Of a stretch of DNA of 64,000 nt, positions 4,226-48,300 are shown in pieces. The stretch comes from Lampris incognitus. Its lineage: Eukaryota; Chordata; Actinopteri; Lampriformes; Lampridae. Made by a program: the position numbers and the translations under genes. Numbering within the stretch: position 1 is the first letter of the stretch; each line of letters opens with the position of its first letter. Under the pieces are notes generated by a model. It was not told where the DNA came from, made no database searches, and saw only the letters and a program-made list of their open reading frames with translations. The stretch is taken from positions 87,127,427-87,191,426 of the forward strand of contig NC_079212.1 of NCBI RefSeq assembly GCF_029633865.1. The letters are read 5' to 3'.

Positions 4226-4800
4226 CGGCTACGGTCGATCCCCGTCGTCTCCGTCTCCACGTTGTGCCGCGCGCACACACACGCACGCGGACGCACGTCT
4301 GCGCCCTCCCGGACAGCGCGTCACAAGCCGCTTTGCTAGCTAGCGAGCCCGGAGTTGACCCTTGTTCACTTCGGCGTTTCTCACGCCTCACTTCGCGGAT
4401 TTTAACATTTCGTAGAAAGACACACAAAAAAAAAGAAAAAGTAACGCGTCCAAACGATCCAACCCTCGTGGCCCGAAATGTGGTTAAAACTTGTACTCTG
4501 GCGTCGTTTTCTGCAACCCCTGACGGCTTCGTCCTTCGCCGTCTTCGGAAGAAGTTACCGCCTCCATCTCTCCTTCCCTGGCAACAAGCGCGACGCTCCC
4601 AGCGACGCATAGCAACCAGTCCACACGGTACCCGGGGCCTCCGGCTACCGGGTGGACCCGTGGCGACTGCGCGGCCGCCGTTGCTGCGTCCCGCTCGTCC
4701 CTGTCCGCAACCCCACCCCGGGGAGCTCGCTGGGTCAACATAACGCCCGATAACTGCTTCCGGTCTGCCGACCATCTTGCAGCAAAGCTCTAACGGGCGA
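2740..4800. promoter_or_regulatory. CpG-rich promoter region of larp4
   Basis: CG dinucleotides become frequent from about 2740 and peak around 4080-4740, flanking larp4 exon 1 on the minus strand. No TATA box is evident upstream of exon 1, so a dispersed CpG-island promoter is the likely type. A perfect 11-bp inverted repeat (TTAAGGGGACG at 3744-3754, complement at 3771-3781) lies in intron 1. The transcription start cannot be placed from sequence alone. Confidence 0.6.
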
Positions 4801-8300: not shown

Positions 8301-11300
8301 CCAGCAGTCATTGGGCAGCAGGAGAGGAGACACCCTGGACAGGCCACCAGGCCATCACAGGGCCCACGCACACACATTCATACATAGGGACAATTTAGTA
8401 CGGCCGATTCACCTGACCTACATGTCTTTGGACTGTGGGGGGAAACCAGAGCCCCCGGAGGAAACCCGCACAGACACGGGGAGGACATGCAAACTCCACA
8501 CAGAGGACGACCCCCAAGGTTGGACTACCCTGGGGCTCGAACCCAGGACCTTCTTGCTGTGAGGCGACCGCGCTAACCACTGTGCCCCCATGCCACCTAT
8601 CATGTTATATATTTTATATATCTATCTATATCTATATCTATATACGTGTAATGGGAACCAAGCCCAAACTTTTGAGGAATAAACCTCATAATTTTAAGAT
8701 AATTGTTTTTGTCTTATTTTATAATAATAATAAAGAGGACCCTGCACTACTGTTCCAGCCCAGTGTGATGTCTGACTCCAAACACAGAGCTACGCGGGTG
8801 TGATCGCAACACAAAACAGCCTATTAACTTAAAGCTTCTACGCTTAAATACAAAACAGTCAAGTCCATTTTTAAAAAGAACATTTATTAAACAAACCAAG
8901 TCAAGGTGAGGACAGTTTGGGCTACATGAAAATCCTATTACAGAAATGGGCTTAGAGGGCGTCCAGGTAGTGTGGCGGTCTCGTCAGATCGAATCCCCGT
9001 GTTACCTCCAGCTTGGTCGGGTGTCCCCACAGATACAATTGGCTGTGTCTTAGGGTGGGAAGCCAGATGTGGGTGTGTGTCCTGGTTGCTTCACTAGCGC
9101 CTCTTTTGGTTGGTCGGGGTGCCTGTTAAGGGGGGAGGGGGACCTGGGGGGATTAGCGTGATCCTCTCACACGCTACGTCCCCCTGGTGAAACTCCTCAC
9201 TGTCAGGTGAAAAGAAGTGGCTGGCGACTGCACATGTATGGGAGGAGGCATGTGGCAGTCTGCAGCCCTCCCCGGATCAGCAGAGGGGGTGGAGCAGCAA
9301 CCGGGATGGCTCGGAAGAGTGGGGTAATTGGCCAAATACAACTGGGGAGAAAAAGGAGTAAAAAAGCCACAAAAAAAAAAAAAGGCCAGTATTCTGGGGC
9401 CTCCGGTTTAGCTGCTTACTTCCATTTCCTAGGAAGACTTCCTCTTCCGTGAACCCATAATTGTCTATGGTTGGATTAGCAACTTGAGATGCGAGAATGG
9501 AATCGAGAGACAACATCTACGACTGTACTGCTTCATAACAGCATATAAGTAGATCCTGTGTCATTACATATATGTTGTGTAATTACATATACGTATATCC
9601 TGTGTCATTACATATATGTATATCCTGTGTCATTACATATATGTTGTGTAATTACATATACATATATCCTGTGTCATTACATATATGTACACTACCGTTC
9701 AAAAGTTTGGGATCACCCAAACAATTTTGTGTTTTCCATGAAAAGTCACACTTATTCACCACCATATGTTGTGAAATGAATAGAAAATAGAGTCAAGACA
9801 TTGACAAGGTTAGAAATAATGATTTGTATTTGAAATAAGATTTTTTTTACATCAAACTTTGCTTTCGTCAAAGAATCCTCCATTTGCAGCAATTACAGCA
9901 TTGCAGACCTTTGGCATTCTAGCTGTTAATTTGTTGAGGTAATCTGGAGAAATTGCACCCCACGCTTCCAGAAGCAGCTCCCACAAGTTGGATTGGTTGG
10001 ATGGGCACTTCTTGCGTACCATACGGTCAAGCTGCTCCCACAACAGCTCAATGGGGTTCAGATCTGGTGACTGCGCTGGCCACTCCATTACCGATAGAAT
10101 ACCAGCTGCCTGCTTCTGCTCTAAATAGTTCTTGCACAATTTGGAGGTGTGTTTAGGGTCATTGTCCTGTTGTAGGATGAAATTGGCTCCAATCAAGCGC
10201 TGTCCACTGGGTATGGCATGGCGTTGCAAAATGGAGTGATAGCCTTCCTTATTCAGAATCCCTTTTACCCTGTACAAATCTCCCACCTTACCAGCACCAA
10301 AGCAACCCCAGACCATCACATTACCTCCACCATGCTTAACAGATGGCGTCAGGCATTCTTCCAGCATCTTTTCATTTGTTCTGCGTCTCACAAACGTTCT
10401 TCTTTGTGATCCAAACACCTCAAACTTGGATTCATCCGTCCACAACACTTTTTTCCAGTCTTCCTCTGTCCAATGTCTGTGTTCTTTTGCCCATCTTAAT
10501 CTTTTTCTTTTATTGGTCAGTCTCAGATATGGCTTTTTCTTTGCCACTCTGCCCTGAAGCCCAGAATCCCGCAGCCGCCTCTTCACTGTAGATGTTGACA
10601 CTGGTGTTTTGCGGGTACTATTTAATGAAGATGCCAGTTGGGGACCTGTGAGGCGTCTGTTTCTCAAACTAGAGACTCTAATGTACTTATCTTCTTGCTC
10701 AGTTGTGCAACGCGGCCTCCCACTTCTTTTTCTACTCTGGTTAGAGCCTGTTTGTGCTGTCCTCTGAAGGGAGTAGTACACACCGGTGTAGGAAATCTTC
10801 AATTTCTTAGCAATTTCTCGCATGGAATAGCCTTCATTTCTAAGAACAAGAATAGACTGTCGAGTTTCAGAGGAAAGTTCTCTTTTTCTGGCCATTTTGA
10901 GCGTTTAATTGACCCCACAAATGTGATGCTCCAGAAACTCAATCTGCTCAAAGGAAGGTCAGTTTTGTAGCTTCTGTAACGAGCTAAACTGTTTTCAGAT
11001 GTGTGAACATGATTGCACAAGGGTTTTCTAATCATCAATTAGCCTTCTGAGCCAATGAGCAAACACATTGTACCATTAGAACACTGGAGTGATAGTTGCT
11101 TGAAATGGGCCTCTATACACCTATGTAGATATTGCACCAAAAACCAGACATTTGCAGCTAGAATAGTCATTTACCACATTAGCAATGTATAGAGTGTATT
11201 TCTTTAAAGTTAAGACTAGTTTAAAGTTATCTTCATTGAAAAGTACAGTGCTTTTCCTTCAAAAATATGGACATTTCAATGTGATCCCAAACTTTTGAAC

Positions 11301-18335: not shown

Positions 18336-21300
18336 TTACTGCAAGTGGATTGGTAAACCATAGACCACAGGTGCGGCCCCTATGAGGTGTTTGAGGTGTG
18401 TGGCATGACGGGATGGACCGATATGGTTCAGAAGGGGAGATCCGGGTCCAGCGGAGAGCCAGGATTTAAGCAAGGCTTTAGTGAAGCGGTCCATGTCTCG
18501 GTCCGTCACATCCCACAGATTTCCTAAAACCAAGGGGCTGGGGGATGGGGGGCAAAGAGGAGATAGATAGTTAGTTAGATACACATCAGCACTTCCTGGT
18601 CTCGCACTCTTCAACCCGTTCCGAACATTTGGTGTGTGTCCTCCAAGTGGCAACTAAAAATAATTAACTTGAGTCGTCGATCATATAATTAATTCTTACT
18701 CGGGCACTCATTTAAAAAGTTTGGTTACTTAAGAAAAATACCTATAGCTTAATTCATAATTAAAAAACAGCTGGCTTGCCGTGCAGTGCCACCTCTTTAT
18801 TCGACAGCGGCCCTACAGGAAGCTCACCTACGGTTCCCCAACTTATTCGTGCTAAGATCTTATGGAGATATTTGAAACAGCTGCTGCTGGGATGTTGTTT
18901 AAGACTGAACGTCTCTAAGAAGTGGGCCGGGCTCAAACTACAGGAGAAGAGCCATTAAGAAAACAAAACTTAACACTGGCTGATAATTACAAACCACATG
19001 GGAGATGGAAAAAATTAGGAATCCATTCCACACCATACTGACCACGAGGTTTGCAGGCTACATTAATGTGAGTCTCAATTTTTAAATCTTTTACTGAGGC
19101 TGCTATAGAGTTTGATAATATTGCCAAACATGTCAACATATAGCGTACTGTATATGAGAATTACTACTACTACCACTACTACTACTACTACTACTACTAT
19201 TACTTTCAGCTGCTCCCGTTAGGGGGCGCCACAGCAGATCATCCGTTTCCATCTGTTCCTGTTCTCTGCATCTTCCTCTGCCACACCAGCCACCTGCATG
19301 TCCTCCCTCACCACATCCATAAACCTCCTCTTTAGCCTTCCTCTTCTCCTCTTCCCTGGCAGCTCCATATTCAGCATCCTTCTCCCAATATACCCAGCAC
19401 CTCTCCTCCACCCATGTCCACACCATCTCAATCTTGTCTCTCTTGCTCTGTCTCCAAACCGTCCAACCTGAGCTGTCCCTCTAATATACTCGTTCCTAAT
19501 CCTGTCCTTCTTCATCACTCCCAAAGAAAATCTTATCATCTTCAACTCTGCCACCTCCAGCTCCACCTCCTGTCTTTTCATCAGTGCCACTGTCTCTAGA
19601 CCATATAACATAGCTGGTCTCACAACCATCTTGTAAACCTTCCCTTTAACTCTTGCTGGTACCTTTCTGTCACAAATCAGTCCTGATACTCTTCTCCACC
19701 CACTCCACCCTGCCTGCACTCTCTTCTTCACCTCCCTTCTGCACTCCCCATTACTTTGGACTGTTGACCCAAAGTATTTAAACTCATCTACCTTCATCAC
19801 CTCTCCTCCTTGCACCCTCATCATTCCACTGTCCTCCCTCTCATTCATGCATAGGTATTCGGTCTTGCTCCTACTGACTTTCACTCCTCTTCTCTCCAGT
19901 GCATACCTCCACCTCTCCAGGCTCTCCTCCACCTGCTCCCTACTCTCGCTACAGATCACAATGTCATCCACAAACATCATAGTCCACAGAGACTCCTGCC
20001 TGATCTCATCCGTCAACCTGTCCATCACCACTGCTAATCCCACCTCTATCTTGAACCCATCCGTCACTCCTACGGCACACCTGACCACTGTCACACTGCC
20101 CTCATACATATCCTGCACCACTCCTACATACTTCTCTGCAACTCCCGACTTCCTCAAACAATACTACACTTCCTCTCTTGGCACGTATATGAGAATTTAC
20201 CAAAGTTCAAAAAGCAGTCATCCTATAAAAAAAAAAAAAAAAAAAAGCAGTATTAAACACTTACATAATTATCTTTATGCATGCTCAATAACCCAGGGAA
20301 GGAAATCACAGAAAGTTGAATTAGTTCATCTGGACACAAGGTTTATTGACTGAAGAGGTCACTTAGATGAGTGAGGAGACATTTCTGTTAATGAACCTTG
20401 TGTCGAGATGAACTGATTCAACTTTCTTTGACAGTGGCATAAAGACCGAAAACAACGATCAGTTTCATATGCGAATTACCGTGACCATTAACTACAGTTT
20501 CAATGGCCATGTAGACTATTCAGAGGATTGGGGAATAATTGCAATCACAGCATTGTAAGATGGCGACAGATGTACTCCAGGTAGACCGTATGAAATTACA
20601 GGAAGTCCCCACCCTTTGCAATAGAACCACCCTGAACACTGACCAAGTGTGTCTGCTCCTGAAGCTGTGTCTTCAGTCCACGTACTTCACATACAGGGGG
20701 CAGTACTATAGGCAGAGGCATGGGTGTGCTATGGGTTCCCCAGTCTCACCTGTAGTGGCCAACTTGTATGTGGAGGAAGTGGAAAAGAGGCTCTGATGTC
20801 CTATCCAGGGACACCACCTAGCCATTGGTTCAGATTTGTGGACGACACCTGGGTTAAAATTAAATCTCAGGACATACCACATTTCACCGACCACATTAAC
20901 TCTGTTGACAAGTTCAGGCCATCAAGTTCACCGGGGAAGATGTGGAACATGACAGGTTAGCCTTCTTACACTGTCAGATTGCAGTTGGTGATGAGGGACG
21001 TTTGATTGTTGATGTTTACATAAACCAACACATACTGATCATTACTTAAGGTTTGACTCTCATCATCCACTGGAGCACAATCTAGGAGTTATCAGGACGT
21101 TGCACCACTGAGCTGACAACGTCCTCACCAACACGGTGGCCGGGGAAGAAAAAAAATCCCACATTAAACAGGCCCTGGTTAAGTGTGGTTATCCTAACTG
21201 GGTGTTTGTCAAAGCCAGGAAGACAACCAAACAGTGAACCAGCCAATCAGAGAGAGTAGAAGGGCCACAGCTGTCTAAGTGTAAACCAGTGGTGATTCTG

Positions 21301-24300
21301 TATGTGGTGGGAGTGTTTGAAAAGTTGATACGCGTATTTTCCAAACACCATGTCTCAGTTGCTTTCAAACCCCAAAACATGCTGCACCAGAAGTTGGTCC
21401 ACCCCAAGGATCAGGTCCCCCGACACAAACAGAACAATATAGTGTAGCTGTTAAGTGCCAGGAGGGTTGCCGTGACTTGTACATCGGGGAAACTAAACAG
21501 ATGCTGGCCAAGAGGATGGTGCAGCACAGGAGAGCTAACACGCCAGACCAGGACTCCACAGTCTACACCATCTACACAGTCTGCACCATCTACACAGTCT
21601 ACACCATCTACAGGCCAGTGGCCACTCTTTCATGGATAAGGATGTGCACCTCCTTGACAGGGAGGAACGCTGGTTTGAATGGGGAGTCAAAGAGGCCATA
21701 TATGTGAAGAGGGAACGACCATCCCTGAACCGGAGGGGGGTTAAGAGTACATCTGTCACCATCTTACAATGCTGTGATTGCAACTAAGGGTGGGGGTACC
21801 TCGAGTCACTGTATTGTTTATAAGGGTGGGGATACCCGCAGTACCTGCAGTCACTGTATTGTTTATAAGGGTGGGAGTACCTGCATTCACTGTATTGTTT
21901 ATAAGGGTGCGGATACCTGCAGTCACTGTATTGTTTATAAGGTTGGGGGTACCTGCAGTCACTGTATTGTTTGTAAGCGTGGGGGTACCTGCAGTCACTG
22001 TATTGTTTATAAGGGTGGGGATACCTCGAGTCACTGTATTGTTTATAAGGGTGGGGATACCTGCAGTCACTGTATTGTTGATAAGGGTGGGGACACTTGC
22101 AGTCACTGTATTGTTTATAAGGGTGGGGGTACCTGCAGTCACTATATTGTTGATAAGGGTGGGGACACCTGCAGTCACTATATTGTTTATAAGGGTGGGG
22201 ATACCTGCAGTCACTATATTGTTTATAAGGGTGGGGACACCTGCAGTCACTATGTTGTTTATAAGGGTGGGGACACCTGCAGTCACTATATTGTTTATAA
22301 GGGTGGGTGTACCTGCAGTCACTGTATTGTTTATACGGGTGGGGATACCTGCAGTCACTGTATTGTTTATAAGGGTGGGGATACCTGCAGTCACTGTATT
22401 GTTTATAAGGGTGGGGATCCCTGCAGTCACTGTATTGTTTATAAGGGTGGGGTACCTGCAGTCACTGTATTGTTTATAAGGGTTGGGATACCTGCAGTCA
22501 CTGTATTGTTTATAAGGGTGGGGATACCTGCAGTCACTGTATTGTTTATAAGGGTGGGGGTACCTGCAGTCACTGTATTGTTTATAAGGGTGGGGATACC
22601 TCGAGTCACTGTATTGTTTATAAGGGTGGGGATACCTGCAGTCACTATATTGTTGATAAGGGTGGGGATACCTGCAGTCACTATATTGTTTATAAGGGTG
22701 GGGGTACCTGCAGTCACTGTATTGTTTATAAGGGTGGGGACACCTGCAGTCACTGTATTGTTTATAAGGGTGGGGATACCTGCAATCACTGTATTGTTTA
22801 TAAGGGTGGGGATACCTGGAGTCACTGTATTGTTTATAAGGGTGGGGTACCTGCAGTCACTGTATTGTTTATAAGGGTTGGGATACCTGCAGTCACTGTA
22901 TTGTTTATAAGGGTGGGGGTACCTGCAGTCACTGTATTGTTTATAAGGGTGGGGATACCTCGAGTCACTGTATTGTTTATAAGGGTGGGGATACCTGCAG
23001 TCACTGTATTGTTGATAAGGGTGGGAACACTTGCAGTCACTGTATTGTTTATAAGGGTGGGGACACCTGCAGCCACTATATTGTTTATAAGGGTGGGGGT
23101 ACCTGCAGTCACTATATTGTTGATAAGGGTGGGGACACCTGCAGTCACTATATTGTTTATAAGGGTGGGGATACCTGCAGTCACTATATTGTTTATAAGG
23201 GTGGGGGTACCTGCAGTCACTATATTGTTTATAAGGGTGGGGACACCTGCAGTCACTATATTGTTTATAAGGGTGGGTGTACCTGCAGTCACTGTATTGT
23301 TTATACGGGTGGGGATACCTGCAGTCACTGTATTGTTTATAAGGGTGAGGATACCTGCAGTCACTGTATTGTTTATAAGGGTGGGGATACCTGCGGTCAG
23401 GTGAGACTGAAGAGGTCACTTGTGCCCCTTTTCCACTGCATGGTACCGGCTCAACTCAACTCTACTCGATTTTTGGTTTTCCATTGGGCAAAAGTTAGGG
23501 ATAGTACCTGGTACCAGCTAGTTTTTTTGGTACCACCTCTGTCGAGGTTCCAAGTGAGCTGAGCTGATACTAAAAGGTGACATGAAAATACCACTATAAA
23601 TAAACAAAAAAATAAAATATATGTATATTTATTTAAATATAAATAAAATATTATAAAAATAAAAAAATATTTACATTTAAATATAAACACAAATAAATAA
23701 ATAAAAGATAAACAATTATGAATAAAATGTATTTATATTCATTCAAATATAAATAAAATCTGACCACTGATTGGTCAGAGAGAAATTGAACAGCTGTTTA
23801 TAACCAGGAAATGCCAAAGCGAGTCTTATGAAACTTGTATTATAGTTGATAATCTATCAATGTAAAAATTGTGTTGTCAGTGAATCTCTTAGTTACAGTA
23901 ATATTGTTCATGTGAAGCACACATTTAGAGTTGGTTTTGTTGATTGATTTGAAAACAAAACACTGGTGTGGGGTGCTGGTAGAGAAGGGAGGAAAAACTA
24001 GTCAACACGCCCACAAACGACCAGCGGGGCTTCGCCATGAGAGGATGCTATCTGCAGTGGAAGACCACATCCCAAAAAATAAAGCCAGTAGAGTCGAATA
24101 GAGTCAAGTTGAGCCAGTACCATGCAGTGGAAAAGGGGCATTGGATGATTGATGAAACGTTTCTCTCTCAACAAACATTGTGTCCAGATGAACTGACTCA
24201 ACTTTCTGTGATTTATATAATTAGCTGACTTTACCATCTTCACTTTGTGCATCTGAAACTTGTGGCCCAATACAGAAATGCAATGGCAACAAAAGTGGGT

Positions 24301-27300
24301 GTTCCAGAAGGACATGAAAAGATATGGGTACACCCTTTAAATTCATCCATGTTGAATGGTTACACATTAATCTGCCTCCACAGCTAACTTTGTGAATATA
24401 TTGGGACAAGACAGCTTACCAGCCTGCCATGAGGTAGTTGAGGATGATTCCTTCCCCCTCCAGATCCCCACGCACTGCCAGGGCGGCACTACTGCAGCCG
24501 AAGAGCAGCGAGGCAGCTCTCATCTCCTGCTTCAGGAGCTTCTGCACATTCAGGAACCGTGCCCCGGCACCGTGACCCACATAACTACAGAACAAAAGGC
24601 AAAAGAGACAGAGAGAGAGGATAAACGCTCTAATCTGGATTCTTCACGGGCAGAACAAGAAATTGAATGTAGGACTAAAAACCTGACAAGTGAAATAATA
24701 ACGGGAGGGCAGTAATTCCACATTATATTTCTTGCCACTTTTTTCTACAGAAAAAAAGTGACAGTATGAAATATGAATTGCAGGTGTAACTAGTTATTGC
24801 AAATAGTACTTATGAAATTGTTAACATGTTATCTCTATGCATCCCTATTTAGTTAATGGAATGGAGGACAGCTCCCCTTCTGGTCAGGTTATGCATGTGC
24901 AGGGTATTGCCCCTTCTAGGTGGGAGTCTCTTGTCATGCGCAGTTGTGATGGTGCTCATGCTGAGAGCACGTTGCTGGTCGCTTGGGATCGTGAAGAAAT
25001 GGAGTGAATAAAGTCGGTTTCACTGAAGATAAACGTCGTGTTTATTCAGAACAAGCTTAGTAGTCAACATTGGTAGCAGTCGATGGTTAGCAGAAAATGG
25101 CTTCTGCTAGCTACAAAGTTCCACCGAAGTTCGATGAGTCCCGACCGTACGAGAGTTGGAAAAATGAAGTTGCTGTGTGGAAGCTCGTTACTGAGCTGGA
25201 TAAGAAGAAACAGGCCCTTGCTGTCGTCCTGGGGCTTGAAGGAAGGGCAAGGGATATCGCCATGGAAATACCCGCTGCAGACTTGAATACAGATGGGGGT
25301 ATGGACGTTTTAATTGCAAAACTAGATGGAATGTTTCTCAAAGAAGAGAGGGACCGCGCTTACGATGCTTATTCGTATTTTGACTGTATCAAGAAGGACA
25401 GTTCTGTGTCCATGGCGGACTATGTGATTGACTTTGAGCAGCGATACAATAGAATGAAAAAGTATGATATGACTCTTCCCGATGCCGTATTGGCTTTTAA
25501 ACTTTTGGATACGGCTTGTCTAGACGAGAGGAGTAGGCAAATGGCGCTGACAGCGTGTACGGATCTAACGTTTGCGGCAATGAAGTCCGCGCTCAGGAGG
25601 ATTTTTGGAGGGAAAATACAAGTCGACGCGACTAATGGCATACAAGTAAAAGATGAAGTGTTCTACACAGAGCAGCGCTCGCGAGGAAGATTTAAACGAA
25701 CAAGTAACGTTGTGCAGCAAGCTGGACAAGAGTCACAGACAACACAGGTTGGACAACAAAAGCCACCGTTACAAGGTACTAACCCACTGGATAGGTTCGG
25801 TAGGCGATCAAAATGTGCTGTATGTCAGAGCACGTTCCATTGGGCCAAGGACTGTCCCCACAAGAATAGCGAGCAAGTAAAGCTAACTGAAGAGCCAGCA
25901 AAAGTAGAGGACACATTGCTTACCAAAGCCTCGCTGTCTGAATCAGCATCAGAGATCTTTCTGACTGAGTCGTTAGGGACAGCTATCATTGATACTGCAT
26001 GTACCCGCACAGTATGCGGAGAAAAGTGGTTGGAAAATTTTGTCGCAGACCTCAGTCAAAGCCAAGTGAACCAGATAGCGCAGAGTGAAATTCCAAGCAG
26101 CAGACCATTTCGCTTTGGAGATGGGAATATAGTACATTCCTCTAAAATACTGAAACTGCCTGCAAAAATAGGACATACAAAATGTCAAGTGGAAACTGAA
26201 GTAGTTAAAACTGATATCCCACTGCTTCTGAGTAAGACTTCACTGAAAAGGGCAGGGACCATTTTGGATATGGAGAATGATAGTGCTGTGATGTTTAATC
26301 AAAATATCCCTCTTGAATTAACCAGCTCGGGACACTATTGTATAGATGTGCACTGACACTTTTCAGACCCTGAAAAGTGTCAGTGCACAAGATGTTATAG
26401 CCAAAGCAGCCATCAAATTGAGAGCAGACATTAAAAGTCAAGATGTTCCTCAAACCTGGCCGCCTGAAGTCAAACCAGAAGCAGAATGTCCTACCATTCC
26501 AGAGTCGCTCATTATCTTCCTGTACTCTCTACTCACAGGCTCAAATGATCCTGATCATGCATCCCAGAGAGTGCAGTGCCTTCTGCAGTCATTTGGCCAT
26601 GACATAGTATATGCAGTGACATGTGGAAATACCAAGCCTTCCAAGCACATTGTTCTGCCATTCAGTGTCAAATCGTTGACAGGAAATGTAGAGTTGATAA
26701 ACGTCCTCAACCAACTTGGTCACAGTGTGTCCTATTCACAGATGGAAGAGATCAACACTGCCCTGTGTCTCCAGAAACTCTCATCATCAGGGAGTGGCAT
26801 TGCCCTTCCAGCTAACATCCATCCTGGCATATTCACAACTTTAGCCTGGGACAATATCGACCGTCTTGAAGAAACTGTCAGTGGTGAGGGAACATCTCAC
26901 AGAGTCAATGGGATTGCTGTGCAAGCAAAGCCAGTCAACCCACTTCCTGTCCAACCCATGCCCACTGTTCCCAAAACAAAGAAGAGAAGCATTGATGGAC
27001 CCCCACCAATGTTACCAACTTACAATGCTGGACAACGGGTAGGGCCACCACAAAGCAAAAAGTCAGATGCCAATACTGCAGCCAATACTAAGCTTGCCAG
27101 AGAGAAAAACCTTCTTTGGGTCCTAGCACGCATGTCACAACAAGAAGAACAGTCAGTCAGCAGCTGGACAGGCTTCAACATCCTGACTCGAGGAGAGATG
27201 ACGGTCATCCCCGACAATATAGGCTATCTGCCTACCATCAATGCTCCAGCGACACAAATGTCTACTGTCAACGAGGTGCTTAACCAGTCACTGAGCATCA

Positions 27301-30300
27301 TGCAGTGCTTAGGCCTGAGGAAGATTGTCTGTGTCTTTGACCAAGCCCTGTATGCGAAGGCTGTCGAGATCACATGGAAACCCCATGACAAGTTCCATGA
27401 TATCATCGTTAGGCTTGGGGTATTCCACACCATCTGCACACTGCTGGCAATAATAGGAAAGCGTTTCCAAGATGCTGGACTCAAAGACCTCTGCATTGAG
27501 TCTGGCATGATTGCAGAAGGCTCAATTGCTGGTGTTATGGATGGCCGCAAGTACAACAGGGCAGTGCGACTACACAAGCTCCTGTATGAGGCTCTCATGC
27601 GACTGACCTTGAATGGTTTCCTGTCCTGGTTGGAAGAAACTCACAGGAATGACATGGTTCACCTGAATGAGACACTGAAGACCATTGACAGCCTTGGGAA
27701 AGAAGTCTCACAACATGCTTTGAAGGAGGTCCTCGAGAACAGCTCTTGTACACGCATCATGGATCTATTTGAAGTCTACCGTGAGTTCCTTAGAGGTGGA
27801 AACGGCAGCCTCTCGAACTTCTGGATGTCCTATTTGGACATGGTTGAAATCTTGTTGGGGCTCATCCGAGCATCCAGAGAGGGAGACTGGATGCTACACT
27901 TGGCTAGCATTCGAGCAATGATCCCATGGTGCTTTGCTTATGACAGGATGAATTATGCACGCTACCTCCCCTACTACTACGCCCAGATGTCTGAGCTGCC
28001 CATCACACACCCAGATGTGTACACAGAATTCATGGAAGGAGGCTTCTCAGTCCAACTGGGCTCCACCAATCCCTTTGGCCGAATCCCTGTTGACCAAGCT
28101 ATAGAAGAAACGGTGAACAAAGACACCCAAACAGCTGGAGGGACAAAGGGATTCAGCTTGAAGCCAGGAGCTGTGACCAAATATTATCTCACAGCTGAGT
28201 ATAGAAGCATGTACCTCAGACAGCTGAGAGACCTGACAGGTCAAGGCAGGTGCAAATGGTCTCATCCAGATCTACAGGAGTCCAAGGATCAAGAGAGATG
28301 AAGCAGATGTCCAGTCTCTCATCGACCTTATGGAGAATAACTGGCTCAATCCTATGTCCCCTGATGAGATTGATTTGGTTAGCCTCTCCACTGGCAACAT
28401 GGCTCCACCTGATGTGACCATAGATCTCTTGAGAGCTCTTGAGAAAGGAGAAGAGGCCTACCAAGCATTCCAGCAAACAAGGTTAGATGCAGACCCACCA
28501 CCTGTGAAATTCCACGACAAGATGACCAAGCAAAGTCTGAAAACATTCTCCAATGTCAGCACAAAACAAGCTCATGGAAAGAAAGCACAGGATGTGGTTC
28601 TGAAGGCAGATAGAAACCTTTTCAGTCACATGATCCTGGTGGCTGAAAGCAGGAAGGTGAATCTGAAGGATGTCCTTGCCTACCCATTGGGCCCACTACC
28701 ATGGGCACTGGCAAATGCTGATGGGTCCTTACGAAAAACAAACAAGGCTGCACTTGCCAGAGAGCTTGAAAAGAATGTATCTCCTGCAGAAGACATCCCA
28801 ATCCCATCTACTTCCATCATTGATGGGATGAGCCTGGTCCAAAAAATGAATGGCAACAACAAAACCTTTACACAGGTGGCAGAGTCAGCCTTGACCCAGG
28901 TCCTCCATGAGGGAGCACAGAGTGGGAGGATTGATGTTGTTTTTGATGTCTATCACCAGACTTCGATCAAAGATGCTGAACGACTGAACCGGGGTGGAGA
29001 CATCACTCTCCAGTACAAGAATCTTGCAGCGGGACACCACGTCCAGCAGTGGAGAAAATTTCTGTGCAGTTCCTCCAACAAGACCAGTCTCATCAAGTTT
29101 CTGGTGGAAGAGTGGAAACTCCCACGATACAGAGCTATGCTGCATGGCAAGGTGTTGTACATGACCTGTGAGGAAACCTGCTACAAGTTGACAGAAGATG
29201 GGTGTGAGGAAGCAGCAGAACTGCACTCCACACATGAAGAAGCTGACACCCGTCTGCTCCTGCATGCATTGCATGCAGCAAATGCGGGCTCAAAGTCAGT
29301 TATCATCACAGCTGAGGACACTGATGTCATGGTGCTTTGTCTTGGCTTCCAGAAGGACATCACCTGTCCCATCTACCAGAAGTGTGGGACTCAGAACCGC
29401 GCACGGTTTGTCGACATCACCAAACTGGCAAGTTCACTTGGAGACAGCATCTGTGACAGCCTAATTGGCTTACATGCCTTCACAGGCTGCGACACTGTCA
29501 GTGCATTCGCTGGTCGAGGGAAGCTGAATGCCCTGAAGATAGTGAGAAAGCACACTTCCTGCCAAGAGACTTTTAGTCAACTGGGACAGACATGGAATGT
29601 GAGTGATGAGCTGTTCCAGAAAATTGAGCAGTTCACCTGTCGGATGTATGTTGCTAATAGCAGCACTGCTGAGGTGAACAAACTGCGTTACCAGCTCTTC
29701 TGCACCAAAAGGGGAGAGGTTGAGTCCAGCCAGCTGCCACCATGTAGAGACTGTCTCTTTATGCATGTTCAACGAGCCAACTATCAGGCAGCAATATGGA
29801 AGTGCTGTCTGCAGGCTAACTCTGTGGTGCCAAGCCCTACTGAGGATGGATGGACAGACGATGAAGGCAAGCTGGCCATTTACTGGATGCGCTCCCCACC
29901 TGCACCAGATGTGGTCTTGGAAATGCTAACATGCAAGTGTGTGCATTCATGCAAAATGCCAAGCTGCATGTGCCTGTCAAATGGACTTCCATGCACAGAC
30001 ATGTGCAGGTTACAGACCTGCAGTAACCAAAAACAGCAGGATGGTCCAGAACTGGACTTTGAACTTGGGGAGTCAGATGAGAGAAACGAGCAGTTTGATG
30101 AATGACAGTGTGATGATTCTGATGGTATTACTGTGGTAGTAGTCTATTGATGCACAGGATGTTGATTCTGGACTTGGTTACCCAGAGCTTGATAACAATA
30201 TTGTAACCATATTCACATATACCCATTACCCTACCCATTACCATTACATATACCCACTAATGATATGGGATTACATGTATCATTGACTAAGTATATGTAA

Positions 30301-33300
30301 ATGTCAATGTTGTTTAAAATATTAAAATAGTTCATTACCTCACTATGGTATTCCTTTTTATCATGTATTTTGATTGTGTATTTAAACAAATGTATAGAGA
30401 CCAGTTTGTGACCTAACTGGCTTTGGTCTAGTTCTCATTTAAGGCTCACAATCACCTCACACAATGAAATAGTATGGGTATATTATACATTTCCTGAATC
30501 TTTACAGTCCTGTGAGTATTCCAGTTTTTGTGTTTTGTGTCCCTGATATTCCTAGATGCCACAGGGCTAAAAGAAAGTATATAGTTTAGGCGAACATTGC
30601 AGAAAGATGTGTGTTATTGACGGGTTGAAGAGCTCAAGTGACCTCTATATTTGTGAGAAATATCCACAACAGGGCTTGAATGAAAGCTAAGAAGGTCCCC
30701 TTTAAAATGATACCAAAGACAATATTATAGAACATTGAAAAATGTCCTGACCATGAGGCTAAACCAGGATATGCACCAGCGTCTAAAATGCAATTTAGTT
30801 TAGCGGGTGGTTAACTTCATGAGCTGATAACTGTGATACAGCTGCCACTCAGGAATGGTTATCATACCAAAATATCATCTACAGACATTGATCCTTTCAA
30901 AAATTATAAGTAAGTTTTGCCACCTTGAGTGTACCGAAATATCGTATGGCCCATGGACTAGATTGGTTGTCTTCTTGGTTTAGACAAACGCCCAGTTAGG
31001 ATAACCAAATTTAACCAGGGCCTGTTTACTGTGGGAATTCTCCCCTTCCCCGGCCGCTGTGTCGGTGGGGGAGTTGTCAGCTCAGTGGTACAGCATCCTG
31101 ATGACTCCTAGTTTGTGCTCCAGTAGATGATGAGAGTCAAACCTTAAGTACTGATCAGTATGTGTTGGTTTACGGTAAACATCAACAATCAAATGTTCCC
31201 CACCACCAACTGCAATCTCACAGTGTAAGAAGGCTAACCTGTCATGTACCACATCCTCCCTGGTGAACTTGATGTGGTTGTCCAAAGAGTTAATGTGGTC
31301 AGTGAAATGTGCTACATCCTGAGATTTAATTTTAACCCAGGTGTCGTCCACAAATCTGAACCAATGGCTAGGTGGTGTCCCTGGATAGGACATCAGAGCC
31401 TCTTTTCCACTTTCCTCCATATACAAGTTGGTCACTACAGGTGAGACTGGGGAACCCATAGCACACCCATGCCTCTGCTTATAGTACTGCCCCCTGTATG
31501 TGAAGTACGTGGACTGAAGACAGTTTCAGGAGCAAACACACTTGGTCAGTGTTAAGGGTGGTTCTATTTCTAAGGGTGGGGTCATTTTGTAATTTCATAT
31601 GGACTACCTCCACTGCTTCATCAACAGGAACGCACGTGAGGACAGACTTGACATCATAAGCGACCATTGTTTCATCCCTCTCCATAATGATGTCCCTCAC
31701 CTTATCCACAATCTAGTTAACGGTCACACCATATTTGCATATGAAACTGGTCATTGGTTCAGTCCTTATGCATCTGTATTGTACTGTATTGTTTATAAGA
31801 GGGTGGGGATACCTGCAGTCAGTTCAGACTGAAGAGGTCACTTAGTTGAGTGATGAAACAGATTTATCTGTCAATAAACGTTGTGTCCAGATGAACTGAT
31901 TCAACCTTCTTTGATTCTGAGAAACATCTTCATTCTTTTGTTTCTTTCGTGTTGTATTTTTGACGCCAATTGTGGAATCAGATCAACACGAGTTTTAAAT
32001 GTCTTCTGTTCTTGTAAACACATGTAAAGCACTCTTTTGTGCCTATATGTGCGCCTGCCCCAAACTCACATGTAGAGATCTTTGGCTGCCACGGCATCTT
32101 GCAGTTGATCAGAATCAGGGGCGATGCCACACACACCTTGCCATTCCGGCTTACTGGAAAGAATGGAATGGAGAGAAAGAAATTCCAATCAAAGGTTCAA
32201 GAGAAAAGACCAATCAATATGACAAATCCACACAAGTCAAAGGCACAAAGAAAAGCAAACGCTCCTCTTTAATTGTGCTATTAGCAGCTGCCTCACCTGC
32301 TAAACCATTCTTTGAATTGCTGTTCTGTGTCTCCTAAATTACCGTCGGGGTTAAGTACATAGTACACCTGCTTGGTATCCACACCTTTCTTCAGGATGCA
32401 TTGAGGATCAGACTGAGGGGAGAGAATTCAATAATGACAATTATTTGCAATGAAACAGAAATATCTAAATTACAATGACTGGAAAAATGTGTGCGAGAGA
32501 TGTGGCACCCCACCTCTTTTCGAACGCAATGACCCAATAATGACTGAAGAGAGGGCATGCGACTAACAGAACAGGGCTTTAAGCAAGAGATGCTCTCCCA
32601 TGGCAGCTTCTGAAGATACTGAACAGGGAACGGGGTAGAAGTCGTTACTTTAGCGTCACACATATCCCACTTCAACATTGGTCACATAGTGCTGGGCTCT
32701 GAATTCTCAGGCTAGCTTATCGTTTGTCCTGAAGAGCCTTTATGGAATTGCAGAGTATGCCAGAATTAAAGAGACAGACCTTGTCCAGGATGAGAACCAC
32801 ATGACCCTGAGGTTCCTCCCTGTTGGACAGCCGAGACACAGCCGTCTGTAGCAGAGTATCACACACCCCCTCCCTTTCTGGAAAAATGCCCAGAGAAAAC
32901 CTCTGAAGTTCTTCTTGGGAGAGTAAAGGAGATGCAGACAGCACGGCCTGAAACACAAGTCAGAGTTTTTAATGATGGTAGTGATTGTCCCCTTGATATT
33001 TATCTGTTCAGTCAACTTGGGGGTGTCCTGGGATATGCCCAATAGCAAGACGACGTGGAAAGCAAGATGTTAAAGGTTGATGCTCTATGGCGCATGCAAA
33101 AATCCAAAAAGAGAATAGCAGGCAATACTTACCTTCAACATCTCCTCGGCAGCCATCATACCCCGGGTAGATAAGGCCTTGTGCACGTTTTTGGCCTGGA
33201 TGGAAAGCTCTGGGTCTGATGTCAGTGGGAGAAGAAAGCTCCGCCAGCAACCCAGCAAACCCTCCATTTCCTCCAGCAGTTGCTGAAAAGAAAGATGGGC

Positions 33301-36300
33301 GTGTTAATGGATGAGGGAGATTGAAACTCAATTTGCCAGCATTTGGTCTTCTAAAGCTTTCACACAGCAGTGAGGCAGGAGAGGGATGCACTTCCTTGTT
33401 TCTTCTCACTTACCTCAACACGAGTGTCAAGTGCCCTGCGGCCTTCCCACCACTTGGCCTTCTCAGAGACAGAGCTCACAACCTTCTGTTCAGTCAGGAT
33501 ACTGTCCATCTCCTGAACCAGCCAGCTAATGGGGTGCTTCACATTACAAGGGGAGAACAACAAAGAGAGACAGGTTGCCAACTGGGACATTAACAAAAAA
33601 CTACCCCGTGCTTGTCTGGATGCATGCTTACAAGAATAACAGCTCGTTTCAGTGTGAGTTTGGTAATTTCCTGGAGGCAGCAAAAGTGCTTTTCCTACTG
33701 TTACCTGAGTATTTTCTCCCTTCAATATGATGTATCATGAAACACTGTCTTGGTGTGACATTTCTTTAAGTTTCTCACCTGCTGTTGGGAGGTGGGGATG
33801 TGAACAGTGACAGGGGCAGATCCCTTCTCAAGGCGGGACAGTAGGATGGTGTCTCCCATCTCACCAGGTTTAACTCCAAGCACAGACAGCACACATACAG
33901 TCACCCCTGTTAAAAAAACAAAAACAAAAACGAATGACTAGGAAAAAAAATAAAAACTTCAGTACGGGAGTTTGTTAAGTCGGGCGTTCGTAACCCAGGG
34001 ACTACCTGTAGTTAACCTTAGACTGGACAAAGAGTGAAACTCACATTAGTCAAGTTGCCAGTTTGAATGAAAGATAAAATGATTAGGAAAGGTTTGTTCC
34101 TTTGTTAATGGCGGTTTCAGATTAGGTATTAACTGAAACATCCATATGATGTATGACCTCTAACATTCCAGAGGTGTCGACTTGATTAAGTTAATTAATG
34201 CATTGCAACAGACTTTGCAATAGAAACCAATCACATACTTGTCATGCAAACCTTGTTGAGGTCACAAAAAGACAATATTTTACCTGAGGGAAGGTCCTTA
34301 ATTTGTTGCATGAACTCTTGGTGGTGCTGCTTAGGGAAGGTGGAGGGATCAGCAGAAGGAAAGGCGAAGATGGTCTCCAACTGTGATAGTCTCTTTTCAA
34401 GACGGTTCCCAGACTCGGCTGCGAGCTCATCTAAGCTCAAGGAACCCATTCTCTCTGACAACTCACTGGAAGTCTTCCTCAGCTTCCTATTGGGAGTGCC
34501 ATGGAAAAGTAATGAGATCAAACTTTCGTACAACATAATCAATCAGTGATACTCAAGGCTCAGCGTTTTCGGTTTTTATTTTTCAAAGCCATCCAGCATG
34601 CCAAATTTCGCCACAAGAGGACACGGTTACATAACCTCACATGAACAGGAACAACTTTTGGATCCATGGAAACATAAAATCCGGGTGAAAATCAGTTTAA
34701 AAATCTGGGTATTTTTCGGTGAAAATCGGTAAAAACCCTAAACGCTGAGCCTTGGTGATACTGTAAGGACCTAAAAGTTCCCCATAAAACTTTCAGATGT
34801 AAAGGGGGCAACTGTTTGGGAGAAAAACTGAGATAGACAGGTGTTTACTTAAGGTGGGTGGCAAGATGTCTGATCACGTGATGGCGGCTGGTGACACCCA
34901 TGGATTGGGTATGAAGCATCGCAGTGGTTATGGGGTCCTGTTGACCTGAGGCTAAGGCCAGAAGAGCACAGAGGGTGGAATAGAGGTTGGGAGGTGGGAA
35001 GTGCTGAATTGCCAACCAGGCAGAGTGCAGCAGAGACTGAACAGCTTCCACAGAAAGGCTGTCTGCAAATAAGAAGCAGAGAAGAAAACTCAATATGTGA
35101 TAGGTGATGAGTTACAAGTAAGAGCCCAGTACACAGTGAATAGAGAGTACATGTGAACTGATGTGCCGGAGAAGGTAGTGTCACGTCTACAAAACCAAAT
35201 AACAAAGGGAGCAAAACCATGGGTGCATCTCCACTTTTTGTTGTGCTGTGTCGTCAGCTCCTTTGGTCAAGCTATCGTTAAGGTGTCATGTTGATGTCCC
35301 GCTAAAAGATATCATTACCCACTCAAAGTAACCAGCATTGGCATTTCACAGAGCCTTGCAGATACAGAACACTCTGCTGAGATTTAGGTCTGCACAGCTG
35401 CTTCTCTGTCAGCCAGACTTCAAAACCCCTTTCTGCCATATTTCGCGGAGACATTTATGCAGCATGGGGGCCCAGTGGTTAGCATGGTCGCCTCACAGCA
35501 AGAAGGTCCCGAGTTTGAACCCCGGGGTTGTCCAACCTGTGTCTGTGTGGGTTTCCTCCGGGTGCTCCGGTTTCCTCCCACAATCCAAAGACATGTAGGT
35601 TAGGTGAATCGGCTGTACTAAATTGTCCCAAGATGTGAATGTGTCGGTCCTGTGATGGACTGGTGGCCTGTCCAGAGTGTCTCCCTGCCTGCCACCCAAT
35701 GACTGCTGGGATAGGCTCCAGCATCCCACGACCCGAATTCGGATAAGCGGCTTGGATAATGGATGGATTTATGCATACCTACGCAGTAACATGTCCCAGT
35801 TTTTAGAGCTCACCTGGCCTGGTGTCTGAATGAGCAAGGTGGGCTTGTAGAATTTCTCCTGGATGACCACCACACAGATCCTTCCGCAGCACCTCAAAAC
35901 CCGAGTCTAAACAGTCAAGGGAGTGTTAAGTCTAGTGAAGGTAGTTTTAACAGCACCAACTCAAAAACTAAACATGGGGCAGCAGTTATGGCAAAAATTA
36001 TCATCCTTATTATTAAAAAAATATTGTGTTGATTATTAGTCGTGATTAATAGCCCAGATTATCTGCAGATTTTACAGCGCCAAAATTCTTACTTAAGGTA
36101 GCGTTGTCCTCATTGTCAGCATCCAATGTCCTCAGCCGCTCAATGCTTAGGTCCATAATTCCATCCATCTCCTCTGTGATGGTCCTCATTTTCTCCACAT
36201 CCTCTTCTGAAACTGGCTTTGTTCCAGCCAGCTGTGCCCTGGATTTACCTCTCCTTACTGGAGCGGGACCCTCATCCTCAGAGGATATAGGCTGAGAGAC

Positions 36301-39300
36301 AGCAGTGCTTTTCCTGCCCCTGACGCGCCTCTTAGGAGGGGCCCTCCCTACGGTTGCCTCTGGGGCAGTTTTGAGGTTGCGAGTACTCCTCGTGGCAGCA
36401 GTATGTTTTTTGGAGCTGTCTGGTTTTTCTTTGAGCTCTGCTTGGGGGCAAGTCTCGGAGTCACTCTCATCACTAAACTCCACCTGCAACAAGAGACACA
36501 AAAACTCAGTGCAAATCAAAACTTTTGTTTTGCTTTATGCAAATTCAACATAAAAACAATAAAATTAGAAGGTCTTTTCAAGCAATAAATGCTCTCCTCT
36601 GGCAGACTTATCTTGTATACCTTGAAAAGTGATTTCTTTGTGCGTTTGGGAGCGGCAGGAACAGGTTGGGCTTTGTCCTGATCTGGAGACAGGTCCTGGT
36701 AAACCTGGAACTGCCCTCTGCGGCCACTAGTTTCTGCCAATGTCCGCACTCCTGGAGGGCCTCTGGCCCTCTGAACTGGAGTACAGGCCACAGTGGGCAC
36801 TTCTGTGTCAAAGTCAAAACAGCCAAGTTCCCGATCAGAAAACTTGGTTTTGTTTGGTTTTACCATCACTGGTGTCATAGGGACCAGGCTCTTTGTTTTG
36901 AAGGATGAGCTTGGCAGGTTGATCTTGGGAACCACAGTCTTAACCTTCTTAGCTTCTTTTGCCTTGTGAGGATGGGACAGGTCTTTGACAGTGATGACTG
37001 GGTCTTTGATCTTCTTTAATGAGGTTGGGGGAGGGACCGTTTTGGGTTTTGACTCCTGCTCTTTGACCCTTTTTGGTGGGTTCCAGATCCACGCGTTGGA
37101 AAAGAGTTCCTCTATGGTGCAGTTCCTTTGGGCAGTGAGGGCAAGCAACAAGGCAATGGCTTTGGTTGCCATTAGGCCTGCTCTTAAGGGCTTCAGCTCT
37201 GGAGAGGGCATGGAATCCACAAAAGCCAAGCCAGCCTCCAGGACATTCCATATACCCTGGACTTTGTCAAGCCTTGTTTTCAGCCCAGACAGAGCCATGT
37301 GCAGGTACACACGGCCAACCACATCCTGCATCAGGGAACACTTGGTGGAAACATTTGCAGGGCCACAGAGAGGGAAGAGATTAGCCAGTTTTACTTCCAG
37401 TTTGGCTGTGACCCCTTTACAGTGATTTAGTGCAGCCTGGTAAAGTTTCCAGCCAACTCTGGTTTCGGTGGGACACAGCTGCAGTGCCAGATCAGCTTGT
37501 GTAGCAGCCCACCGGGCAGTGGTGAGGCCCATATTGGGCTCAGAGCAACAGGGGCACTTGCAGTCAGTTTCATGGGCCAGGGAGGACAGCCAGGGACGAG
37601 GCTTGGCTTTGAGAGGAGGGGAGCTGGTTGGATCCCTCTCTACAGGTTCCTTAAAAAACCACCTAGTGCTCAATAAGCCTTCACAGTCATCCTCTGGGCT
37701 AGGAAGGGGAGACTGTGGTTTCTGTGTTGGACGACCTTTCCTTGGTTTAATTTTCACCCCTGCCTTCTGCTCCTGACTAGAAAAATCTAGAAACAAAGAA
37801 AGAAAGAACACAAAAAAAAAAATCACATTCATTGTTGGACTTCATTGGGCACATTGAAACAAATACCCAGATTACAGAGTAATCTGTCAAAGTCAATAAT
37901 TTCATTTGATGATTTATATGGTTTCATTAATGGGATTTTTCTAAAACCTGGGTTTACACTGGTCCTTTTAGTTATCAATCTGTGTGTGTAACATTCTTGT
38001 GTAAGAAGTGGGGTTGTTGTGAAGTGTCTAGTGTGTTGGTGTGGTGTTCTGTGCCTGTCACGTCTCGCTCTCAACCTTCACCGCTGGCTAGCAGAAATGC
38101 GACAGGAGAGCTGAGCACATAAGTCTCTCCAACAACAAGCTCTATGTAGTGCCTCCTCGTGGCAACACACGATAAAGGGGTACACACCTTGGACCCTGGC
38201 TGAACTACAAGGGACCTGGCCCCTAGATGTGCGGTACAAAGGCTCACCGGTGTGTGGATATCCCCTGATGCCCACGAACCAGCCCAAGTTATGGGTTAAA
38301 TAGTGCCACTGCCTAGTGGATACCTCGGGAGAGGAATAGGCTACAGGAGTAAACCCCTACACAACATCAACGTCTACAGTGCTGTTTTTTGTTTTTCTTG
38401 CCCTTTTGTATCTGTTTAAGTGGGAGAGTACTGCTGGCATCGTGTGTGGCTGCCGCTTCTCCCTCTCGTAGCCCCCCTTCCCATCCACCCCTGTATGTCT
38501 GTGTTATGTTTATCTGTTGTCTTGTTTCACTCCGTTTATTGTAAAGCCACCTTGAGTGTTAGAAAAGCGCTATATAAGATGGATTTATTATTATTATTAT
38601 TATCTATGGTACGTCGGCTCTTCCAATACCTCCCATTGCACCTGCTCAATTGTGGCAGTAACAGTCGTGTCAAGCAAGCATGTCACCATTTTCTTTGCCT
38701 GTCTGAATTTATTTACTGTTTTTTGCACATTACTTCAGAACACTACATTAGCTCGTTGCCATCCAGTCTGAGTATGCAGTGACACAGAGCATGCTACTGC
38801 AAGCTGTGTCAAATTGTACTCACTGTGTTTCAAGTCAGCACCCATAATTTAAACAGTGAACAACTGAATGACCTAACCAGCTTTTATCACAAATGAAGAA
38901 TGGAAAAGGGTCAAATGGAGAGATTAGTATTAATAAGATGCCCATATTTCGAAGTGAAACCTAACAGATTTTTTGGAAATTGTGCAAGGTTGATGGGGAG
39001 TGTCAAGTCATCTTGGATATCTTTCCATGAAAACTATGAAAGGAAGTCCCTGCCTCTTTCAAGCCATGGCTTTTCACTATTTGTGATAAAAGCTGAACAC
39101 TAAGTTGCAGTTTTTGCTGTGCGGCTTGTCGACACTGCAATGATGTAAAATTGAATGTAATGATTACAGTTTACAATGCTGATTGAGACGGTCAGCTGTC
39201 TGCTTCACTGCACACGGTCATGACTGGTTACCAATGCTAATGATACTGTAACCTACAAAAGACTCGCTGGCCGACCGCCAGGGGGTCAGCCCCCTTTAGT

Positions 39301-45300: not shown

Positions 45301-48300
45301 AAAGTCCATCCATCCATTATCCAAACCGCTTACCCTGATCTCAGGGTCGCGGGGATGCTGGAGCCTATCCCAGCAGTCATTGGGCGGCAGGAGGGGAGAC
45401 ACCCTGGACAGGCCGCCAGACCATCATAGGGCCGACATACACACCTAGGGACAATTTAGTACGGCCGATTCACCTGACCTACATGTCTTTGGACTGTGGA
45501 AGGAAACCAGAGCACCCGGAGGAAACCCACGCAGACATGGGGAGAACATGCAAACTCCACACAAAGGGCGACCCCCAAGGTTGGACTACCCCAGGGCTCG
45601 AACCCAGGACTTTCTTGTTGTGAGGCGACCGCGCTAACCACTGCGCCACTGTGCCGCCCTATATTGGATCCAATGTTGTAATGATCAATTTAAAACAAGA
45701 ATATTGAACTGATAAGGGTTACAGACCATTATCAGTGGCGCTTGAAATTAAAACAGCAGAAAAGAACCAAATTAAAACCAAGAAGGAGATTTTAATAGCA
45801 GCCCTTGTAATTACTTTTCCCATGAGTCTGAAGAGGGCAGCAGTGAGGACAATAGAACTGCAGGTCCGTTTGGGGTTCCTGACAGATGGAACGACTTGGC
45901 ACTGCAAAAGCGAAGACCACAACTCCAGGGCCCTTTCAAGAGGCTGGCAAAACTCTGAGGGAATAAAAACACGAATGTCAAAGAAATGGAACCTTAAAGG
46001 CTTAAAGTTGATTTCAACAGGAGAATAAAGGTACAGTGGCATCAAACAGTACATTATAACATAGGGCGGAGATGCTTCGTGGAGCAGCCAGTTCATCAAG
46101 ATATCAATTACTGCTTTAATTTGGGACTACTAATAACATCTGGATGGTTCAGCATGTGACATGAGGAGTTGGTACCTGTCTCAGAGGCCAGATTGAAATT
46201 CAGGCCCTCGTACACAGAGGTGCTGTCCTGCTGCTTTTGCTTGTCTTCATAGTCCAGATCATTGGTCCCTATAGAACTGAACACACACCTCATCTGCTCA
46301 CTCACGTCCTGCTGTCCCTTCTCCTTCTCAATGGCCTGGTCACAGGGGAAGAAATCAGATCCAGCATAAAGAGTCTAAAGACAAGATGCAGTGATTCCAG
46401 ATTGGGGTTGCTTCTAGGGATTTCAATTTTGCCCGTGACATGTCCCTAAAATTTCTATATTCTATGGAGGAAATTTTTTTTCTATGCAAATATTTTGTTT
46501 TTATTCACTTCATGTCTGATCTTCTTTTGGCTTATTCCCTGTTTCTCAGGGGTCACCACAGCGGATTTTACAGATTCCATCGGTACCCTGTGACGGAACA
46601 GCACCAATGGCGGCCGTTGTTAACCTGGGCCTTGACCGATCCAGTATGGAGCCTCGACCGATCTGGTATGGTCTTGTCAATCTGCATACTCTACTACTAC
46701 TACTTTCAGCTTCTCCCGTAAGGGGTCACCACAGCAGATCATCCGTTTACATCTCTTCCTGTCCTCTGCATCTTCCTCCGTCACACCAGCCACCTGCATG
46801 TCCTCCCTCACCACATCCATAAACCTCCTCTTTGGCCTTCCTCTTCTCCTCTTCCCTGACAGCTCAGCATCCTTCTCCCACATGTCCAAGCCATCTCAAT
46901 CTTGTCTTTCTTGCGTTGTCTCCAAACCGTCCAATCTGAGCTATCCCTCTAATATACTCGTTCCTAATCCTGTCCTCCTTCATCACTCCCAATGAAAATC
47001 TTGTCATCTTCAACTCTGCCACCTCCAGCTCCACCTCCTGTCTTTTCATCAGTGCCACTGACTCCAAATCATACAACATAGCTGGTCTCACAACCTTCCC
47101 TTTAACTCTTGCTGGTACCCTTCTGTCGCAAATCATTCCTGACACTTTTCTCCACCCACTCCACCCTGCCTGCACTCTCTTCTTCACCTCTCTTCTGTAC
47201 TCCCTGTTACTTTGGACAGTTGAGCCCAAGTATTTAAACTCATATGCCTTCGTCACCTCTCCTCCTTGCATCCTCATCATTCCACTGTCCTCCCTCTCAT
47301 TCTCGCATATGTATTCTGTCTTGCTCCTACTGACTTTCATTCCTCTTCTCTCCAGTGCATACCTCCACCTCTCCAGGCTCTCCTCAACCTGCACCCTACT
47401 CTCACTACAGATCACAATGTCATCAGCAAACATCATAGTCCACAGAGACTCCTGCCTGATCTTGTCTGTCAACCCGTCCATCACCATTGCAAACAAGAAA
47501 GGGCTCAGAGCCGATCCTTGATGTAATCCCACCTCCACCTGGAACCCATCTGTCATTCCAACCACACACCTCACCACTGACACACTGCCCTTATACATAT
47601 CCTGCACCACTCCTACATACTTCTCTGCAACTCCCGACTTCCTCATACAATACCACACCTCCTCGCTTTGCACCCTGTCATATGCTTTCTCTAAATCCAC
47701 AAAGACACAATGTAACTCCTTCTGGCCTTCTCTATACTTCTCCATCAACATTTTCAAAGCAAACATCACATCTGCAGTACTCTTTGCATGAAACCATACT
47801 GCTGCTCGCTAATCGTCACCTCTCCTTTAACCTAGCTTCTATTACTCTTTCCCATATCTTCATGCTGTAGCTGATCAACTTTATACCTCTGTAGTTGCTA
47901 CAGTTCTGCACATCACCCTTGATCTTGAAAATCGGTACCAGTATGCTTCTTCTCCACTTCTCAGGTATTCTCTCACTTTCCAGATTGTGTTAAACAATCT
48001 AGTTAAAAACCCCACTGCCATCTCTCCTAAACACCTCCATGCCTCCACAGGTATATCATCAGGACCAACTGCCTTTCCACTCTTCATCCTCTTCATAGTT
48101 GCCCTCACTTCCTCCTTGCTAATCCACTGAACTTCCTGATTCACTACCCCCACATCATCCAACCTTCTCTCTCTCTCTTTCTTCATTCATCAGCCCTTCA
48201 AAGTACTCCTTCCACCTTCTCAACACACTTTCCTTACTTGTCAGCACATTTCCATCTCTAACCTTGATCACCCTAACCTACTGCACATCCTTCCCCGCTC

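Follow-up and report, generated by a model that had tools for sequence, protein, structure and literature searches.

The window analysed here is a 64,000-nucleotide stretch of the Lampris incognitus genome (NC_079212.1, positions 87,127,427 to 87,191,426). It contains a copia-type long terminal repeat (LTR) and Gag-protease frame, followed by a second long coding stretch with nuclease-like motifs that ends in an inverted repeat, as listed in Table 1. The original prediction offered two explanations for this arrangement: two insertions had collided, or this was a composite element with a second open reading frame (ORF) supplying a nuclease. The stretch is very probably a one-off collision and not a new hybrid element.

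The copia half was compared with the host genome (1.48 Gb). The genome searches leave out very common words and are limited to the top-scoring candidates; for the copia half, scores were obtained for 40 of 185 first-look candidates. The LTR-like segment noted in the original prediction is real, and its proposed start at 24785 is 34 bases early. For most of the other scored copies, the match begins at the first LTR base or the base adjoining it. The proposed primer-binding site was also recognized by eye, and the Gag-protease frame is indeed open. The only Pfam support for this frame is a zinc knuckle at E 0.022, under the curated cut-off, and the knuckle scores across the window and its siblings range from E 0.022 to 0.5. 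As had been claimed, no integrase or reverse transcriptase (RT) follows Gag-protease in the window. Both are found in the siblings. A 919-codon frame runs on from Gag-protease in all three siblings read, an integrase core (rve, E 2.9e-9) was detected in the one sibling tested for it (L034), and copia-type RT (RVT_2, E 5.3e-32) in the one tested for that (L038). Further coding sequence and a 3' LTR are present in both siblings followed further, and the 3' LTR aligns over LTR bases 1-251 at 99.6% identity. The window's copia sequence (24819-26347) is 99.8-99.9% identical to 3/3 fetched copies. The first half is a truncated copia LTR retrotransposon. Its 251-bp LTR and zinc knuckle, together with the integrase core before copia-type RT and the 3' LTR in the siblings, are features of Ty1/copia elements, from which it differs in being cut at 26347, without integrase, RT, ribonuclease H, or 3' LTR.

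In its complete form, the element that carries the second ORF is a DNA transposon bounded by ends of its own. Twenty copies of this second element were fetched (21 with the window), out of 47 fetched loci in total. All 20 match the window from 26364 onward without any copia part, at 98.7-99.5% identity over 26364-30960 (L029 and L031 aligned as two pieces). The window copy has lost the 5' inverted repeat, the leader, and codons 1-311. An inverted partner of the 3' repeat (510-511 bp) is present upstream in 18/20 fetched copies, and the outer ends, TAGTCCATG..., are also found in 18/20. The other two copies, L014 (322 bp of inverted partner) and L024 (none), are truncated on the 5' side at sites other than the window's. 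The 18 complete copies measure 6.7-8.0 kb, the longest being L031 with an extra 1.2-kb inverted-repeat insert. The original prediction had proposed looking for a 3' LTR past the nuclease-like ORF; the copies end in the inverted repeat instead.

The insertion sites of the two-ended copies were also examined. The target duplication is exactly 3 bp in 18/18 copies, compared to 16/306 mismatched flank pairs in the control. Three copies with identical flanks (L015, L026, and L027) account for 6 of the 16 mismatched-pair matches, and the 18 copies thus count as 16 independent insertions. These three copies lie on contigs C7 and C6, and their shared flanks suggest that host DNA, or pieces of the assembly, have been duplicated. 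When the 20 copies were compared with window positions 20000-36000, and five of them with the whole window, only 26364-30960 plus its inverted repeat matched, and no other piece of the second element was found. A short deletion derivative, considered because of matches to 29629-30962, was rejected: some of these matches sit in copies with a 1560-codon frame (e.g. C3 near 28.78 Mb) and are, therefore, alignment pieces.

The two halves meet in a fold-back palindrome. In the copia-half search, 38 of the 39 scored candidates other than the window stop matching at query base 1563, which corresponds to window position 26347, and the remaining candidate stops at 1417. A genome search with 26500-28000 gave 38 matches, the window included. 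A query of 211 bases around the junction, for which 40 of 66 first-look candidates were scored, returned 41 matches, and the window alone matched at full length. Thirty-eight of the others covered the copia side only (query bases 1-98), one covered the transposon side only (113-211), and in the last the palindrome matched itself in reverse. With up to 3 mismatches allowed, the genome has a single occurrence of the 41-nt palindrome. Thus, no second copy of the junction was found among the best 40 of 66 candidates or by the palindrome search. Both halves are present at four of the 47 fetched loci, namely L036 and three that represent the window locus. At the join, the copia end TATAGAT is followed by 19 bases of the second element in inverted orientation, then by a shared CAG, and then by the second element in direct orientation, with one T shared at the copia-side join. 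Such a structure is the expected form of fold-back, microhomology-based repair.

Since the two families occur separately, no second junction was found, and the join carries a fold-back scar, the stretch is very probably a chance junction of two separate, unrelated, young multi-copy families, by whatever route it arose. The suggestion that two insertions had collided was, therefore, essentially right, with the halves lying apart at many places. The composite element did not hold up, as the copia siblings have an integrase, RT, and 3' LTR of their own and the second ORF lies in a complete DNA transposon. A mobile unit combining LTR-Gag-protease with a nuclease ORF would agree with the same orientation of the two halves, their youth and open frames, and an ATG lying exactly at the junction (26346), where the second coding stretch starts; this ATG is supplied by the junction. 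However, the lack of a second junction among the best 40 of 66 candidates, a right end formed by the DNA transposon's own inverted repeat with no LTR, and two differing frames, the second without its first 311 codons, make a unit of this kind extremely improbable.

Another possible explanation is a nested insertion, a variant of the chance junction in which copia entered a copy of the DNA transposon and its 3' part was then lost. L036 shows that the two can adjoin: there, at another site, a copia copy neighbours coding sequence of the second element, with the two running in opposite directions. At the window locus, however, the left flank of the LTR is host DNA and not transposon. A genome search with this flank (24216-24818) found nothing but the window, so it is single-copy and nesting would require a further deletion; we consider this route unlikely. 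As for L036 itself, the copia copy abuts the second element at 1501-4529, apparently as a nested insertion.

Three points weigh against a genuine collision of the kind described. A second junction could have been missed, since very common words and lower-scoring candidates fall outside the searches. Just 2 copia copies were traced as far as the 3' end. Finally, the join could be a chimera created in the library or the assembly, with the fold-back as its artefact, since palindromic joins are a known type of chimera and this junction was found once in the genome. The locus lies in a 152-Mb contig, however, and bases shared at both joins are also normal for genuine repair, which leaves a chimera with only a small chance of being correct.

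The simplest history of a chance junction would be two neighbouring insertions and one deletion. The copia retrotransposon would have inserted at 24818/24819, in single-copy DNA, and the DNA transposon of about 6.8 kb, with its long inverted ends and 3-bp duplications, would have landed a short way off, within a Penelope-like fragment. The 3' part of copia, ~2.2 kb at the start of the DNA transposon, and anything that separated them may then have been lost when a later break was repaired. The ends would have been sealed via a 19-nt fold-back, with the shared CAG inside it and the shared T at the copia side. The order of these events and the deletion are our proposal.

Table 1. Features of the copia-transposon junction region. 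Positions are those of the 64,000-nucleotide window.
Position	Strand	Feature	Basis
24216-24818	.	Host flank left of the copia LTR, in neither element	Genome search
24819-25069	+	5' LTR of a copia-type retrotransposon, TG...CA, 251 bp	Copy starts and sibling 3' LTRs
25070-25083	+	Primer-binding-site-like segment directly 3' of the LTR, TTGGTAGCAG	By eye
25097-26356	+	Gag-protease frame, open; copia sequence until 26347, then ended by junction sequence	
26346-28301	+	Middle part of the transposon protein, putatively transposase-like; no Pfam family	
26348-26388	.	Fold-back palindrome, 19-nt arms and 3-nt spacer; left arm is the inverted start of the second element	
26364-30960	+	3' part of a ~6.8-kb terminal-inverted-repeat DNA transposon	20/20 fetched copies match
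28237-30105	+	C-terminal part of the transposon protein, XPG/FEN-like motifs and cysteine-rich tail	
28277	+	One-base frameshift, approximate place	Absent from 5/5 copies compared
28816	+	IIDGM motif	In 18/20 copies
28936	+	VVFDV motif	In 18/20 copies
29236	+	EEADTR motif	In 20/20 copies
29314	+	EDTDV motif	In 20/20 copies
29485	+	GCDTV motif	In 17/20 copies
C-terminal frame	+	GRGK motif	In 20/20 copies
30432-30960	-	3' terminal inverted repeat	Inverted partner in fetched copies; outer end by comparison
30961-30963	.	GAT, expected right half of the 3-bp target duplication; left half presumably lost	18/18 complete copies and sequence
30963-31609	-	Penelope-like RT fragment, apparent transposon target	RVT_1 E 1.1e-5, under the curated cut-off

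The gene of the DNA transposon was examined next to its siblings. The long second coding stretch of the original prediction is real and consists of the frames 26346-28301 and 28237-30105, with the frameshift between them, a single additional base, near 28277 and not 28245. Elsewhere, the transposon encodes one protein of about 1558 amino acids, a presumed transposase that starts with zinc-finger-like modules and ends with the XPG/FEN-like part. In the front part, codons 1-311, two modules of the form C-x2 or 3-C ... H-x2-C were seen by eye (L018 residues 19-76 and 122-185). No known-family profile, Pfam transposases included, matched along the whole 1558-amino-acid protein. No relatives were confirmed in viral contigs and none were found in phages; PHROGs gave chance-level rows only (E 0.28 and 0.88), and NCBIfam gave none.

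Two of the 20 fetched copies, L018 and L030, have an unbroken 1560-codon frame, and L021 has 1557 codons. In the genome search with the transposon protein, which scored 103 of 2885 first-look candidates, 25 of the 103 rows show the 1560-codon frame with no stop in the aligned part, a share that is biased upwards because the rows are the best-scoring ones. The 102 rows other than the window are 98-99% identical in this search. The low decay and youth noted in the original prediction are confirmed by the nucleotide identities in 20/20 transposon copies and 3/3 copia copies. Among the 21 copies, window included, the pooled nonsynonymous (dN) and synonymous (dS) divergences are 0.0063 and 0.0069, which places each copy about 0.3% from a common source. 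At the neutral rates of fish, this points to an age on the scale of a million years or below, and the DNA transposon was probably active recently. The dN/dS ratio of 0.92 is neutral decay since insertion and is silent on earlier selection.

The second ORF had also been read as a nuclease, based on acidic motifs in FEN1/XPG order. This order is seen by eye in 28237-30105, and each motif is present in 17-20 of the 20 copies. The motifs have no profile support. The original prediction would have dropped the nuclease if a profile search found no PIN/XPG family; no significant match was found, and by that standard the nuclease is unproven. Several results count against it. There was no XPG-N or XPG-I match in Pfam at E up to 10, no XPG-type family in Pfam or NCBIfam, and no such PDB sequence; one of these searches gave 4 weak matches, the best being SLX1 at E 0.39. 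With an archaeal FEN1 profile of 6 sequences, hhalign scored 19.8, which was exceeded in 9/100 shuffles and is close to the 19.4 of the middle ORF, and its alignment falls on residues 23-44, away from the motifs. An ordered-block score of 5.8 was reached by 8/1000 shuffles (shuffle mean -11.4), and the middle ORF scored 4.9. L018, one of the two full-frame copies, is without the aspartate of the VVFDV motif. Single-sequence structure models were unusable, with a predicted local distance difference test (pLDDT) score of 31.6 for the C-terminal frame and 34.6 for the nuclease part alone.

Other results on the nuclease part were mixed. HMMER with filters off gave 2.7 bits against the archaeal FEN1 profile, with the best domain (0.7 bits) at the expected place. 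The reversed and gag controls of the ordered-block test scored -11.3 and -18.2. Of the six blocks, the last three coincide with the motifs in register, the third is close to its motif but out of register, and the first two (IIDG and VVFD) are placed elsewhere. A search of the genome with PF00867 found 9 places, none of which is the window; they were not compared with every family copy. Significance tests of this part call for diverged relatives and were run here without them. The predicted CXC-type cysteine-rich end is present as a tail, and its match to the tesmin/CXC Pfam model reaches only E 0.66. An XPG/FEN-like nuclease is nevertheless plausible, and in our view likely, because of the motif order and because the description of AcademX transposons combines 3-4-bp duplications with a nuclease, which in AcademX is of the XPG type. 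A bolder reading would make the element a vertebrate DNA transposon that is still active today and whose lineage has yet to be described, with many intact copies in one fish genome and a giant protein joining a transposase to a divergent FEN/XPG-like nuclease; we regard this as doubtful.

Several other features lie in the window. The 30963-31609 fragment, which we take to be Penelope by name, forms an inverted pair with 20579-21230; these Penelope-like RT fragments are 90% identical and about 9.7 kb apart. Beside Penelope-like sequence, about 45 copies of a 36-bp minisatellite unit fill 21785-23400, and a short piece recurs at 31783-31843. On the minus strand, there are an open 350-codon Tc1-type transposase frame (9852-10904, DDE_3 E 1.5e-11), two similar-looking RT frames (46864-47808, RVT_1 E 2.5e-26, and 19219-20163), and an exon-like frame at 36516-37841 that matches separase chains in PDB (Separin, E 7.4e-16). 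The frame 50972-51802 had no PDB match. No Rfam family reached the gathering score in the window, and no transfer RNA was found there.

These findings remove a false hybrid element from the list of candidates. They also provide a clean example of a fold-back scar between two mobile elements. In addition, a young multi-copy transposon with full-length frames is a candidate for testing the activity of an Academ-type transposase-nuclease fusion in a vertebrate.

Known DNA transposons in which a transposase occurs together with a nuclease served as a comparison for the second element. In PMC9587614, KolobokP, KolobokE, and KolobokD are described as Kolobok lineages with this pairing. The second element resembles them as a DNA transposon with a presumed transposase and a putative nuclease. 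It differs from them in its 3-bp duplications of varied sequence and in the type of nuclease. The Kolobok target is TTAA. The closer likeness is to AcademX, for which PMC10045372 gives 3- or 4-bp target duplications and an encoded nuclease; Academ is reported from zebrafish, medaka, and stickleback in PMC4746887. The second element likewise has terminal inverted repeats, 3-bp duplications in 18/18 copies, one large protein, and, by eye, an XPG-like motif order. The 9- or 10-bp duplications of AcademH were not seen, as more than 3 bp were shared in 0/18 copies. The nuclease part here differs in being without profile or structure confirmation, and a further difference is the youth and multi-copy state of this family. 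Placement in another or a new superfamily would affect the label only and not the junction. It would suit a 1558-amino-acid protein that matches no known-family profile, and 3-bp duplications also occur in other superfamilies, but these duplications together with the XPG-like motif order make up the AcademX combination, and a different label seems somewhat unlikely. Movement of the DNA transposon is presumed to be cut-and-paste with a 3-bp stagger at the target, like that reported for AcademX, and its enzyme activities are likewise presumed. We conclude that the second element is probably AcademX-like. Young and multi-copy, and likened to AcademX by description and not by transposase sequence, this DNA transposon probably represents a new family of an already known type.

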